Part shown: in pieces, positions 18,349 through 44,071 of the stretch
Layout of the letters: every line of letters starts with the position of its first letter
Numbering within the stretch: position 1 is the first letter of the stretch
Origin: a virus
Virus record (IMG/VR): IMGVR_UViG_3300035034_000508
Location: 1 to 49,282 of that record
Strand: one strand, 5' to 3'
DNA: 49,282 nucleotides
Position numbers and translations under genes: made by a program
The notes under the pieces: model-generated
What the model was told of the DNA's origin: nothing
Seen by the model: the letters and a program-made list of their open reading frames with translations, nothing else
Databases searched by the model: none

Positions 18349-20124
18349 TTAGATTAAATGGTTGTCATCGTATTCAGCAGGTTTAACCGGCCCATGTACC
18401 CTGTATCTTGTTGTATTGTTATCAGGAATAAATGATAATACATCTAAATATCTACTGGTTGGTGGATAATATTTATACTCACCCGTAGCTCCACTACTTA
18501 TGACTTCACCATCAAGTTCACCCGTAATGTGATTATAAAAACGAACAGTTGCCTCAACAGGAACACCTTGCAGTAGGGTAAACCCTTCTACTTTATAACG
18601 AGTTGTAAACATCCAACGACTTTGAATTTGTAGTGGTTCTAGTGCATATTCATACTGAACCAACTCACACATTTCACCTAATACTTGATATTCACCCGGC
18701 CCTGTGTTCATTAAATGAAGTTGAGAAGGTTTATCATTTGAAGGTGATAACGCATATGTACCTTGAGCGTTTAATTCACCATCAATGTATAGTTTTAAGT
18801 TAACTGAATCGCGCACAACGACTAAGTGATGCCACACACCATCATTCCAGTTCTCACGTTCAGATGTTGCAGGGTCAGTATCACGTGAAGAAATTCTAGT
18901 GGTTGTGTTTTCAGTGACTTCTATATTACCGGGAGCATTGATACCGCTCTTACTGTTCAACCAAATTATAAGGCCATTCCAATTAGGGTCATCCTCAACA
19001 CAATGTAGCAATGTACCACGATTATATGAATTACATTTAAACCAGAATTCAATTGTATATGGGTTAGAAATATCAATAACAGGGTAGTATCTACCTACCA
19101 GTTCACGATTGATAACCGCATTACCTGTGTTATTGAATTTAGTTGAATGTGATTCGACTAGTTTATCAGGGCCGGGGAAATAATTTGAAACGCTTCCATA
19201 ATAGATACCATCTAAACCACCAATCTCAGCGTACATTGTATTATCATCGGGTACGAATAATTCATTCATTCGCCAGTAACGAAAGGGTGCATCATTTTTA
19301 ATTAAAGTATCATAATGTTTTGTTCGTGTGTAATGGTAACTCACTTGACTTTCTTCTATGCCATAATTGTATACAGCAATTTGGTCAAGTTTAAGTGTTT
19401 CAGTTGCAAAGTCAGTCACTGCATTTGGGCCACCATTACCCGCAATAAACCATGAATCATTAGTTACTGTATTTGGATAATTATCAAAATAATTCTCACT
19501 ATCCTGACCAACTAAACGACCATTTATATACACATTAATAACAGATTGATATTCGTTTACATCAATCTGAGTTACATCATATGAAACGATTAAGTGGTTT
19601 GTACTTTCAAATATATTGATACCTAGATTGGTATCCTCATATACTCTGATATTTCTACCAACTACTGTAATATCTAAGTAGTCAGTGCCATACCATGAAT
19701 CTACAGTGCTTATATTTAATACAGAACCTTTAAGGATTAGTGGTGTAACGATACTACTGCGATAACCCGGTTCACCACTCAAGCGTATCATATCAGCCTT
19801 ATCTTTATAATAAAGCATTTCTACTGAGAATGAACCAAGTACAGGGAAGTTAAATGAAGATGAGTGAGCAGCCTCAAAGTGACACTCAGGCCAGCCACCA
19901 TCAACTAATTGTTGCCAACCAACTGTACAAGCGTATTGGTCTACAACTTCAATAGGATTTAAAGAAATCTGCTCAAGTAAATAATCATCACCATTAACGA
20001 CTAATGGGTTTTGGTTGCCTTGTTCATCGACAATAGCATTACCATTCAATCCTGTTCTATCCGAATCGAAAGTCCAGAAGGCTGAAGGTACTGCATTAAG
20101 TTGTGATTGTTTTAATCCCGGCAT
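18349..20124 (-). CDS. LamG/concanavalin-A-like lectin tail protein, 591 aa
   Basis: Two lectin-like halves can be traced: residues ~1-225 (AFWTFDSDRTGLNGNAIVD ... NVYINGRLVGQD) and ~240-500. The second contains the LamG hallmarks NPYTIEFWFKCNSYNRGT, GVWHHLVVVRDSVNLKLYID and GELNAQG. The last ~70 residues (GFTLLQGVPVEATVRFYN, then ATGEYKYYPP, ending KPAEYDDN) resemble a carboxypeptidase-regulatory-like beta sandwich. A similar C-terminal module ends the proteins at 26338 and 22158. Probably a glycan-binding adhesin on the tail. It follows the homing endonuclease gene without a gap. Confidence 0.8.
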   Translation of the reverse strand: MPGLKQSQLNAVPSAFWTFDSDRTGLNGNAIVDEQGNQNPLVVNGDDYLLEQISLNPIEVVDQYACTVGWQQLVDGGWPECHFEAAHSSSFNFPVLGSFSVEMLYYKDKADMIRLSGEPGYRSSIVTPLILKGSVLNISTVDSWYGTDYLDITVVGRNIRVYEDTNLGINIFESTNHLIVSYDVTQIDVNEYQSVINVYINGRLVGQDSENYFDNYPNTVTNDSWFIAGNGGPNAVTDFATETLKLDQIAVYNYGIEESQVSYHYTRTKHYDTLIKNDAPFRYWRMNELFVPDDNTMYAEIGGLDGIYYGSVSNYFPGPDKLVESHSTKFNNTGNAVINRELVGRYYPVIDISNPYTIEFWFKCNSYNRGTLLHCVEDDPNWNGLIIWLNSKSGINAPGNIEVTENTTTRISSRDTDPATSERENWNDGVWHHLVVVRDSVNLKLYIDGELNAQGTYALSPSNDKPSQLHLMNTGPGEYQVLGEMCELVQYEYALEPLQIQSRWMFTTRYKVEGFTLLQGVPVEATVRFYNHITGELDGEVISSGATGEYKYYPPTSRYLDVLSFIPDNNTTRYRVHGPVKPAEYDDNHLI

Positions 20125-21510
20125 TTATTTTAAAACCCATGTATATGTTTTACATGACCATATACGGTCATATTTAAGTTCTTGCATCATTTCCCATTCA
20201 GTTTTATTTATATCAAATAATTGTGGATGTTTTACGGCGATTCTCGATTTCTGATACTTCATTCTACTTTCAATAGATTTATAATCTTTCGTGTAGTAAT
20301 ATATCGGGTCATTGATTCGAGTTAACCTAAAACCATTCTGTTTATAAACATTACCATCAGAGTATCTACAATCAGAATAACTAACAAGTACACCTTCGGG
20401 GGTGTGTTTTAGTAATTTACTGAATCCACCAACAACTCTATACCCCTGTTTTACACAAAATCTATTCAGTTCATAATCATATTGGTGGTTACGTGATTTG
20501 ATAAATGTCATTACAGCAACCAATTCATCTTCATAAAACAATCCATACGCATATGAGTAATTACATGAACCTTGAACGTGATTCTCATTTAAGAATTCAT
20601 TACAATTGTCTACTTCTCTAACAACTGTTTTCCTACCATGTATAGCTGTAGAAACCCCACATTTAGCCTTAATCATATTAATGATAAGGTTGAATTTCTG
20701 GTTTACTTCCTCATCCCAAAATTGATATAAATGGATACCATGTTTCTTGCATACTTCATACTTAGATTGATGGTATTGACGACCTTTAGAGCCAGCCAAT
20801 TCACTATGAAACTTATATCCATTTATCTCAACTGCAACATTATGTTCAGGGAAGTAAATATCTAATTCAATACCATCTAATTTATAAGATTGTACTGGAT
20901 TGAATTCTGACAACACATCAATTAACCGCCTTTCATTTAAACTGGTATTACCCGATTTAACAATTGGTATGTTATGATAATGTAACGCGTTTTGTACAGT
21001 TGGATATGACACATTAATTAAACGTGAAATGATACCAATGTTCATGTATTCTTTATATAGGTTTAATAACCAATCACGGTTTTTTAGGTTAACATGAGTT
21101 GGAACGTGTTTATAATCCACTAAAGATTTATAATGGAATTCACTCTCATACATCACATCGTCAACTGAAATTAATTCTTTATTATCATTCCAATTAGTAT
21201 TGTCAACTGTAATATTGTGCTTCTTAATATATTTGCCAACACATTGTTTAGTGATACCTAATGAATCAGCTATCCCTTGATATGATTTGGTTTTACCATA
21301 TGCATCTACCATCCACTCTTTATTGTCTAGTTTTTCTTGAATGTGTGGAGCAATAAATCCATGTTTTTTGATTGGCACATTATGTTTCTTGAAGTGACTT
21401 GAAAGATATTTACGGTTAATACCATATTTACTCTCAAGATTTCTCATACCCAAACCTTCATTTAAGTAATCATTAACAATCTCATCATGAAACAAATCCA
21501 GCTTCGACAT
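20125..21510 (-). CDS. Free-standing homing endonuclease, EDxHD/Vsr-like nuclease with helix-turn-helix repeats
   Basis: 461 aa. The N-terminal ~185 residues contain three helix-turn-helix-like units (LESKYGINRKYLSSHFKKHN, IADSLGITKQCVGKYIKKHN, ISRLINVSYPTVQNALHYHN). Residues ~210-270 are the nuclease core: ELDIYF with E215 and D217, AVEINGYKFH with E228 and H235, and a conserved IHLYQFWDEE strand. The C-terminal part (HVQGSCNYSYAYGLFYEDE, VVGGFSKLL, SYSDCRYSDGN) matches the accessory domain of phage homing endonucleases of the Hef/I-Bth0305I type. It interrupts a run of tail genes and has its own sigma70-type promoter, as expected of a selfish gene. Intact by length. The target site is unknown. 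Confidence 0.88.
   Translation of the reverse strand: MSKLDLFHDEIVNDYLNEGLGMRNLESKYGINRKYLSSHFKKHNVPIKKHGFIAPHIQEKLDNKEWMVDAYGKTKSYQGIADSLGITKQCVGKYIKKHNITVDNTNWNDNKELISVDDVMYESEFHYKSLVDYKHVPTHVNLKNRDWLLNLYKEYMNIGIISRLINVSYPTVQNALHYHNIPIVKSGNTSLNERRLIDVLSEFNPVQSYKLDGIELDIYFPEHNVAVEINGYKFHSELAGSKGRQYHQSKYEVCKKHGIHLYQFWDEEVNQKFNLIINMIKAKCGVSTAIHGRKTVVREVDNCNEFLNENHVQGSCNYSYAYGLFYEDELVAVMTFIKSRNHQYDYELNRFCVKQGYRVVGGFSKLLKHTPEGVLVSYSDCRYSDGNVYKQNGFRLTRINDPIYYYTKDYKSIESRMKYQKSRIAVKHPQLFDINKTEWEMMQELKYDRIWSCKTYTWVLK
20205..20212 (-). promoter_or_regulatory. Candidate late box TATAAATA inside the 3' end of the homing endonuclease gene
   Basis: A perfect TATAAATA on the minus strand, about 81 bp upstream of the 591-aa lectin gene start. 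It could supply late transcription to genes downstream of the inserted endonuclease. It lies in coding sequence, so chance is possible. Confidence 0.4.
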
Positions 21511-21526
21511 AACACAACCTCATAGA

Positions 21527-21576
21527 GTAAACAATGGTGACAAATTTATATTATTATATATGTCACCATTGTTTAC
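21527..21576. repeat. 16-bp perfect inverted repeat over the homing endonuclease promoter
   Basis: The arms GTAAACAATGGTGACA (21527-21542) and its exact reverse complement (21561-21576) are separated by 18 bp. On the minus strand the first arm fills the -35/-10 spacer and the second covers the start of the transcript. The spacing of arm centres, 34 bp, is about three helical turns, as for a dimeric operator. As RNA the arms could also form a hairpin, but only if transcription began upstream. Confidence 0.85.
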
Positions 21577-21581
21577 GTCAA
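21553..21581 (-). promoter_or_regulatory. Sigma70-type promoter of the homing endonuclease gene
   Basis: On the minus strand: TTGACG (21576-21581), a 17-bp spacer, TATAAT (21553-21558). This is near consensus for a host vegetative promoter, in the middle of a late operon. The endonuclease ATG follows about 43 bp downstream with a GAGG Shine-Dalgarno. Confidence 0.85.
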
Positions 21582-21606
21582 GTGGATTATTAAAACTTGT
21601 TATAAA

Positions 21607-22044
21607 TTAACAAGTTGCACGAGTTATACGTAACTGACCAGCAAGAATCTTCGGCGCGCCGTCGCCGTTATTAACAACTTTAGAAGTTGTAAGTGATGCT
21701 ACGAATAACAGGTTATTTGTACCACCTGCATCTGAATCATATAAACCCGCACCAACAATAGTGCCCCAATTGGCAGTAGGTGTACCGAACTGAATATCCC
21801 CTGTATTGTTATATTCAAGGTTAACACCAGAAGGGCCACTCCAACCACCAGCACCAATTGATATGCGGCCATAACCAGTACCAGATGTATTTACTTCTTG
21901 ACCGGGTGTTGTTGTTCCATCCAGTGAAGGTAATGCGGTGAACAGTGCTACCCAAATAGCAGCAGGGGCAGTCCATGCAGTGTTAGATAGCAGGTAAGCC
22001 ATCTGTTGATTGTATAAGTAATCTGAAGTAGTTGCACTAGGCAT
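21607..22044 (-). CDS. Small phage tail protein, 145 aa
   Basis: The pattern SDYLYNQQMAYLLSNTAW, then PAAIWVALFTALPSLDG, then GQEVNTSGTGYGRISIGAG is the common 'Y-L...L-N-x-x-x-W-T-A-P..vyvaLfT..P...G.EVs..gYaR' signature of a family of small tail proteins found across many phages (mycobacteriophage Gp80-like). The C-terminal half is beta-rich and ends in Cys. A late box lies 84 bp upstream. It is the gene immediately upstream of the homing endonuclease. Its exact position in the virion is unknown. Confidence 0.75.
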   Translation of the reverse strand: MPSATTSDYLYNQQMAYLLSNTAWTAPAAIWVALFTALPSLDGTTTPGQEVNTSGTGYGRISIGAGGWSGPSGVNLEYNNTGDIQFGTPTANWGTIVGAGLYDSDAGGTNNLLFVASLTTSKVVNNGDGAPKILAGQLRITRATC

Positions 22045-22127: not shown

Positions 22128-22135
22128 TATTTATA
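22128..22135 (-). promoter_or_regulatory. Late promoter box TATAAATA upstream of the 145-aa tail gene
   Basis: A perfect TATAAATA on the minus strand in the 113-bp gap between the 311-aa and 145-aa genes, 84 bp before the start codon. Confidence 0.7.
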
Positions 22136-43301: not shown

Positions 43302-43490
43302 TTAAAAAAAGGCATCTAATGAATTTGGTTTCTTTTCATGATAAATCCTCATGTCACCAAGTTCATTGAGTTTAGTTGCTGCTACCTTAACGTTACCTTT
43401 TATAAAAGTCAATACATTTTGGTGCGCCCTGCCAATTTTTCTTGTAGCCAACATTGAGTTATTAGCTCTCATTGGTTGTGTTTTTGTCAA
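43302..43490 (-). pseudogene. Possible C-terminal remnant of a phage DNA methyltransferase, 62 aa or less
   Basis: The frame is open from a TTG at 43490, with ATG codons at 43472 and 43454, none with a Shine-Dalgarno. TRKIGRAHQNVLTFIKG, followed by KVAATKLNELG, resembles the 'GR.HQNVLVF.KG' end of phage DNA-modification methyltransferases. No methylase core is present upstream, where the tmRNA terminator and coding piece lie. A decayed gene fragment is more likely than a functional short protein. Confidence 0.4.
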
Positions 43491-43507
43491 TCGACCAACA
43501 CAAGCAT

Positions 43508-43549
43508 TAAAAAGAAATGGGGTTTATTCTGTTTGCAAGAAAACCCCAT
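43508..43549 (-). terminator. Rho-independent terminator after the tmRNA coding piece
   Basis: On the minus strand: ATGGGGTTT, a 15-nt loop, AAACCCCAT, then TTCTTTTT. Stem positions are 43541-43549 with 43517-43525. It lies 30 bp after the tag stop codon. Confidence 0.85.
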
Positions 43550-43880
43550 AAAGAAAAACTCAGTTAACTCGACTACATTTAAGCAGCTTGAGCAACAGGC
43601 GTATAACTCTCATCGTTTGCAGTTATATTTAATTTCTTCGATATTTTACGTGCAGTTGCTTTCACGTACCATCAGTGTGTTCTCAGTACCTTGTCGAAAC
43701 CGTATCACCCCCATCAGAAGCACACTATGTTCTCACCGTTACTAAGGCCATGAATTCCTGTTTACGCTTCTCAGAACCCCTCGTCAGGGTCAGTGTGCTT
43801 TTGGTGGAGATGGCGGGACTCGAACCCGCGTCCAAGGCTACCTACCTTCTACTTCATATGATAATATTCTTTATCAGAAA
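43550..43880 (-). ncRNA. ssrA: tmRNA, circularly permuted (two-piece type)
   Basis: Minus-strand order is: acceptor piece with GCCTTGGACGCGGG, T-loop TTCGAGT and CATCTCC-A-CCA ending at 43802; an 89-nt spacer (43713-43801) closed by AAGCACACT/AGTGTGCTT; then GGGGGTGATACGGTTTCGAC starting at 43712; then the tag frame at 43579-43620 encoding ANDESYTPVAQAA-stop with resume codon GCA. GGGGGTG pairs with CATCTCC over 7 bp, including G3-U70, the alanine identity pair. CAAGGTAC can pair with GTAGCCTTG as the long connecting helix. The 3' half precedes the 5' half, so the mature RNA must be two pieces. Outer ends are approximate: the upstream end follows the 66-aa ORF and the downstream end is before the terminator. 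Confidence 0.9.
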
Positions 43881-44071
43881 AGAGTATACACCCATAATCC
43901 GATTATAGCAATAACAATATATATAATTATTACATTTTTAAATCCTACTAATGCACCAAATTCATTATCAAGTTGGCACTTAGATTCACCAACAACACCG
44001 GCTTCTGTATACGCCTTCATTGGTTCAAGGTCAAGTATAGCACCTTCTTTCACTTTATTTTCATCATTCAT
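43874..44071 (-). CDS. Small single-span membrane protein, ~65 aa
   Basis: Start taken as the ATG at 44071 (MNDENKVKEGAILDLEPMK); a GTG at 44080 is possible. Residues ~45-65 (VIIIYIVIAIIGLWVYTLF) are a clear transmembrane helix at the very C-terminus, so the protein would be tail-anchored with a cytoplasmic acidic domain. Its stop is at the start of the tmRNA acceptor piece, and a weak GGTG is the only Shine-Dalgarno. Function unknown. Confidence 0.55.
   Translation of the reverse strand: MNDENKVKEGAILDLEPMKAYTEAGVVGESKCQLDNEFGALVGFKNVIIIYIVIAIIGLWVYTLF

Follow-up and report, generated by a model that had tools for sequence, protein, structure and literature searches.

Why does a homing endonuclease gene that lies among the late genes of a phage have a strong sigma-70 promoter buried in a long inverted repeat? 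The window that we analyzed is the whole 49,282-nt stretch of a virus record with T4-like virion genes. A sequence-only reading of this locus proposed that the endonuclease might repress its own gene and that the arms of the repeat might mimic half of its target. Both ideas gain support from the results below, namely a likeness between the arm and codons of the adjacent gp80-like gene and a parallel with the endonuclease I-TevI; a role as an RNA hairpin is also possible. The features of the locus are listed in Table 1.

Table 1. Features of the endonuclease locus, with positions in the window.
Feature	Position	Strand	Remarks
Laminin-G/ConA-like (LamG) virion gene	18349..20124	-	directly after gp80 in L051-L055
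Homing endonuclease gene, Hef type	20125..21510	-	EDxHD/Vsr-like nuclease, 461 aa
GNAT-fold domain	20131..20610	-	closest solved structure is phage Mu Mom
TATAAATA within the endonuclease ORF	20205..20212	-	88 nt before the LamG gene
EDxHD nuclease domain	20611..20943	-	about residues 190-300; matches I-Bth0305I (3r3p)
HTH module 3	20977..21078	-	residues 145-178; AlphaFold model
HTH module 2	21220..21321	-	residues 64-97; AlphaFold model
HTH module 1	21385..21489	-	residues 8-42; AlphaFold model
Shine-Dalgarno GAGG of the endonuclease gene	21518..21521	-	5 nt beyond the repeat
Inverted repeat, arm 1	21527..21542		plus strand reads GTAAACAATGGTGACA; minus strand overlaps about +4 to +19 of the predicted transcript
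Late-promoter-like TATAAATT	21543..21550	-	in the repeat loop; one mismatch from the T4-like late promoter TATAAATA
-10 element TATAAT	21553..21558	-	17-nt spacer
Inverted repeat, arm 2	21561..21576		minus strand reads GTAAACAATGGTGACA; fills the -35/-10 spacer
-35 element TTGACG	21576..21581	-	
Weak A+T-rich hairpin	21594..21616	-	9-bp arms; spans the gp80 stop codon
Gp80-like virion gene (PF23140)	21607..22044	-	predicted homing target
Predicted recognition half-site GTTAATAACGGCGACG	21660..21675	-	in the gp80-like gene; codons V N N G D
T4-like late promoter TATAAATA of the gp80-like gene	22128..22135	-	source of read-through

A promoter within an inverted repeat

As the sequence-only reading described, a TTGACG-17-TATAAT promoter on the minus strand is embedded in a perfect inverted repeat with 16-bp arms. 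The two arms are complementary at 16/16 positions and are separated by an 18-nt gap (34 bp from start to start), and the entire repeat is 50 bp long (21527-21576). Read on the minus strand, the promoter and repeat are TTGACG-[TAAACAATGGTGACATA]-TATAATAATATAAATTTGTCACCATTGTTTACTCTATGAGGTTGTGTTATG. The transcription start of the endonuclease gene is predicted to be near 21546, inside the repeat, which places one arm between the promoter hexamers and the other over the early transcript, again as described.

Among perfect inverted repeats in the window with gaps of up to 60 nt, this one is the longest, and it exceeds the runner-up (11 bp) by 5 bp. Dinucleotide shuffling of the whole window (12 times) gave no perfect inverted repeat of more than 13 bp, which is at least 3 bp shorter than the one observed. 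The promoter matches the sigma-70 consensus at 11/12 positions. Promoter-like pairs of hexamers are not rare here (18 sites in 4 kb versus 20.5 expected), and just two of them reach 11/12. What is unusual is the combination of the promoter with the repeat, not the quality of the hexamers alone.

The T4 late promoter, TATAAATA, is the most enriched 8-mer upstream of genes in this phage (7 genes versus 0.64 expected). The gp80-like gene has this late promoter, while the endonuclease gene has the sigma-70 promoter and TATAAATT in the repeat loop. This difference suggests that the endonuclease gene has its own promoter, probably an early one, within a late operon. TATAAATA also occurs inside the endonuclease ORF, where it is created by the codons ATA AAT; several relatives encode E-N there. 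A comparable embedded promoter is known from T4 gene 32/segG (PMC2988022).

The endonuclease

That the gene encodes a homing endonuclease among late genes had been proposed from the sequence, and this is confirmed: the protein matches phrog_3339 (homing endonuclease, E = 8e-83), and its neighbors are T4-like virion genes. The stop codon of the endonuclease gene abuts the ATG of the LamG gene. We built an AlphaFold model of the protein from a 20-sequence alignment (mean pLDDT 83). The modelled protein has three HTH modules, an EDxHD fold, and a GNAT fold, in that order. The HTH modules are trihelical units, in agreement with the three HTH-like units that had been noticed before.

A profile of the endonuclease's relatives matches the catalytic domain of I-Bth0305I (PDB 3r3p) with E = 2.7e-7, and the modelled nuclease fold aligns to 3r3p with an rmsd of 2.7 over 94 columns (TM to the target of 0.73). 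Also, E215, D217, E228, H235, and H247 are invariant across the 20 relatives, which are the conserved acidic residues and histidines of an EDxHD (Vsr-like) nuclease.

The C-terminal GNAT fold is closest to Mom from phage Mu, which is a DNA-modification protein, and 2 of the 20 relatives match Mom in Pfam. In the modelled protein, a nuclease is fused to a possible DNA-modifying domain, which could bear on self-protection.

The insertion site

In five loci from relatives (L051-L055), the gp80-like gene is followed by the LamG gene within 16-21 nt or fewer, without the endonuclease and without the repeat. (The gp80 of L051 is 82% identical.) So, alleles that lack the endonuclease gene exist, and the gene is inserted beside its predicted target. 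In other relatives, different genes occupy the junction between gp80 and LamG. A sister contig that is 99% identical has the same insertion with the repeat unchanged. These two, both with the endonuclease, are the only phages in which we found the double-armed repeat. Because the repeat is known from one lineage, its conservation cannot be used as evidence.

The sequence-only reading had suggested a search for the arm in relatives that lack the gene. In these, the junction is without the inverted repeat, and the conserved 3' part of gp80 always contains one close match to the arm, in frame. We also found 42 exact matches to the arm in viral contigs, of which only the sister phage's has the endonuclease or its neighbors, so we rejected the idea that the arm is a widespread motif. 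When we searched viral and bacterial contigs with a degenerate two-armed pattern, the other matches were not beside such genes.

At a locus from another phage (L158 5600-7103), a decayed and frameshifted relative of the endonuclease lies directly beside a gp80-like gene, on its other side. This suggests that the neighborhood of gp80 attracts such genes.

The arm resembles codons of gp80

Arm 2 can be read as the codons GTA AAC AAT GGT GAC, or V N N G D. In each of the first 11 gp80 genes that we compared, the arm matched best at one and the same in-frame site, which falls in the invariant VNNGDGAP motif. Within the five codons, all of the mismatches are at third positions; the sixteenth base differs in all 11 genes. 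The end of gp80, which borders the insertion, is 54-69 nt downstream of the site, and in L051-type gp80 the site reads GTGAACAATGGTGACG. Across nine loci of 7-10 kb from relatives, with both strands considered, the gp80 site is the unique best match to the arm in 6/9 and the joint best in 2/9. An invariant motif fits with the observation that endonucleases of this kind often target codons for functionally critical residues (PMC2988022).

We aligned the arm with 14 gp80 homologs whose phages lack this endonuclease, and 11-14 of the 16 positions are identical (mean 12.3/16). This mean was reached by 1/100,000 permuted arms and by 2/48,696 other 16-mers of this phage, which corresponds to p of about 1e-5 before allowing for multiple looks; the 14 homologs are related and hence not independent, and these statistics ignore their kinship. 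What first drew us to gp80 was a scan across six genomes in which, with up to 3 mismatches allowed, the arm had 5 hits. By our estimate, chance alone would give about that many, although two of the 5 were to the same gp80 codons, beside the insertion site. Our case depends on the tests that followed, and chance is an unlikely source of the match even after a generous correction for multiple looks.

The similarity between arm and target shows up only in relatives without this endonuclease. The resident gp80 site matches the arm at 11/16 positions, and the match of the arm to this phage's own flanking genes, including the resident gp80, is not significant. We looked for a second, inverted half-site around the gp80 target and did not find one, so binding by two arms at gp80 is not supported.

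The target region of the resident gp80 (21652-21675, minus strand) is rich in rare G/C-ending codons: GC3 is 7/8 codons, versus 0.24 overall, and is near the highest in the phage and among the highest in its late genes. We considered whether the site had been recoded for resistance. However, GC3 is likewise elevated there in some endonuclease-free relatives, and two loci that lack the endonuclease (L159 and L164) have the identical 24-mer, so this reading is ambiguous and we gave it no weight.

Probable autorepression at a copy of the target

We think that the inverted repeat is probably an autoregulatory operator, with two inverted copies of the endonuclease's half-site from the VNNGD codons of gp80. 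We are more tentative about a broader possibility: that an EDxHD homing endonuclease can bind as a dimer to a palindromic operator of two inverted half-sites and so repress itself, and that the promoter of a free-standing phage enzyme can thus reveal its target.

Early in infection, sigma-70 RNA polymerase would transcribe the endonuclease gene. As the protein builds up, its three-HTH region would dock on both arms, in the -35/-10 spacer and at the transcript start, and block the promoter. In phages without the gene, the same region would dock on the gp80 codons while the EDxHD domain cuts nearby, and repair would copy the endonuclease gene into the junction, about 50-70 nt away. The recognition half-site would then be present as one copy in the gp80 codons and as two inverted copies over the promoter, and the protein that cuts the first would occlude the second.

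Dimerization on the repeat is suggested by analogy to the representative of the EDxHD family (I-Bth0305I), which is described as dimerizing on its target, a site almost 60 bp long (PMC3943268). Alternatively, the operator may be a pair of independent monomer sites, as gp80 has no visible second half-site.

Alternative explanations

Another potential role for the repeat is as a timing device that acts in RNA. Late RNA that reads through from the gp80 promoter would fold the repeat and hinder ribosomes, while RNA that starts inside the repeat would lack one arm and be freely translated. Given the predicted start, the predicted hairpin does indeed form only in read-through RNA, and there is a TATAAATA late promoter upstream of gp80 to produce that RNA. 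In the read-through RNA, about 11 kcal/mol is needed to open the stretch that runs from the stem to the AUG, versus about 5 kcal/mol in the promoter-started RNA. There are also precedents in T4 I-TevI and segB and in mobE from Aeh1, and seg43(25) has a hairpin in a similar place, although its effect on translation was reported as undetermined (PMC2988022, PMC3014915). However, the Shine-Dalgarno sequence and AUG cost about 4 kcal/mol to open in both RNAs, so the ribosome-binding site is not clearly sequestered, as it would be in a T4-type system, and the predicted occlusion is weak. Nor does RNA timing explain why the arm carries the codon sequence of gp80. We consider this account unlikely, but an RNA hairpin and an operator may also act together, as two layers of control.

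The likeness to gp80 might instead be a scar. If a piece of gp80 had been captured beside the endonuclease gene during homing and then doubled by template switching, the repeat would be a neutral by-product with no regulatory role. Imprecise repair can leave such scars, the arm does resemble the adjacent gene, and the repeat is known in just one lineage. But the similarity does not extend beyond the repeat, each arm coincides exactly with promoter positions, and neither arm is disrupted in either of the known genomes, which makes a neutral origin improbable. A dyad over the -10 element and +1 is also a usual layout for an operator, so another repressor from the phage or its host could bind there, with the likeness to gp80 being a coincidence. 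Yet the window has no further copy of the arm at up to 3 mismatches, and the match to gp80 homologs is far above chance; we view this as very unlikely. Finally, a strong stem between two genes could terminate the gp80 transcript, and many relatives have terminators at the equivalent position. This repeat is almost certainly not a terminator: neither strand has a run of T after the stem, a gap of 18 nt is long, and the weak hairpin at the end of gp80 is a better candidate.

Comparison to known systems

The closest parallel to autorepression at a copied target is I-TevI, the endonuclease of the T4 td intron. The operator of I-TevI overlaps its own promoter, as the repeat does here; it is 15/20 identical to the homing site (versus 11-14/16 here), and I-TevI represses its own expression (PMC2988022). 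If gp80 is the homing site, as we infer, then the arm resembles the homing site in the same way. On the other hand, I-TevI is a GIY-YIG enzyme that is encoded within an intron and has a late promoter and one asymmetric operator, while this protein is a free-standing EDxHD enzyme with a sigma-70 promoter and two inverted half-sites. Autorepression by target mimicry is already known for I-TevI; the match between the arm and the gp80 codons is the new result.

Although the nuclease domain resembles that of I-Bth0305I by both profile and fold, the protein described here is free-standing, and its nuclease is flanked by three HTH modules on the N-terminal side and by a Mom-like GNAT domain on the C-terminal side. 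It shares phrog_3339 with the Hef-like homing endonucleases of T4-related and Campylobacter phages, with 35-45% identity across the nuclease and C-terminal domain, but the N-terminal DNA-binding part, the insertion site, and the upstream repeat differ. In mobE (Aeh1), segB (T4), and seg43(25), a hairpin precedes the endonuclease gene, as it does here, and for mobE and segB, the promoter is also placed so that its transcripts cannot form the hairpin. Unlike in those systems, the hairpin here does not clearly cover the Shine-Dalgarno sequence, and the strong promoter is of the sigma-70 type. The layout is closest to that of seg43(25).

Endonucleases of the Hef type are very common in phages, and their target sites are mostly unknown. 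If our interpretation is correct, an operator copied from the target would reveal the endonuclease's site from sequence alone. It would also extend autorepression by target mimicry from intron-encoded GIY-YIG enzymes to a free-standing EDxHD enzyme, and would show how a selfish gene brings its own off-switch into a cluster of late genes.

Other Hef-type genes and other features of the phage

We surveyed about 85 other Hef-type genes. Many of them do not have a long repeat upstream, and many of the long repeats (including those of L088, L098, L105, and L121) resemble ordinary terminators. The survey did not turn up the arrangement seen here, and it does not support such repeats as a general property of Hef genes. 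We also compared the arms from L124, L145, and L098 to their own flanks and found no significant copy.

Two Hef genes (L133, region 1350-1520; L138, region 1560-1712) have a sigma-70-like promoter and a structured leader upstream. The two leaders share GACAGnGnTTGGCC, and the leader has no match in Rfam.

Elsewhere in the window, this T4-like phage has a permuted (two-piece) tmRNA gene (43488-43896, minus strand; Rfam tmRNA_permuted, 105 bits), for which ARAGORN predicts the tag ANDESYTPVAQAA. The region around it (38.6-49.3 kb) also contains 23 tRNA genes.
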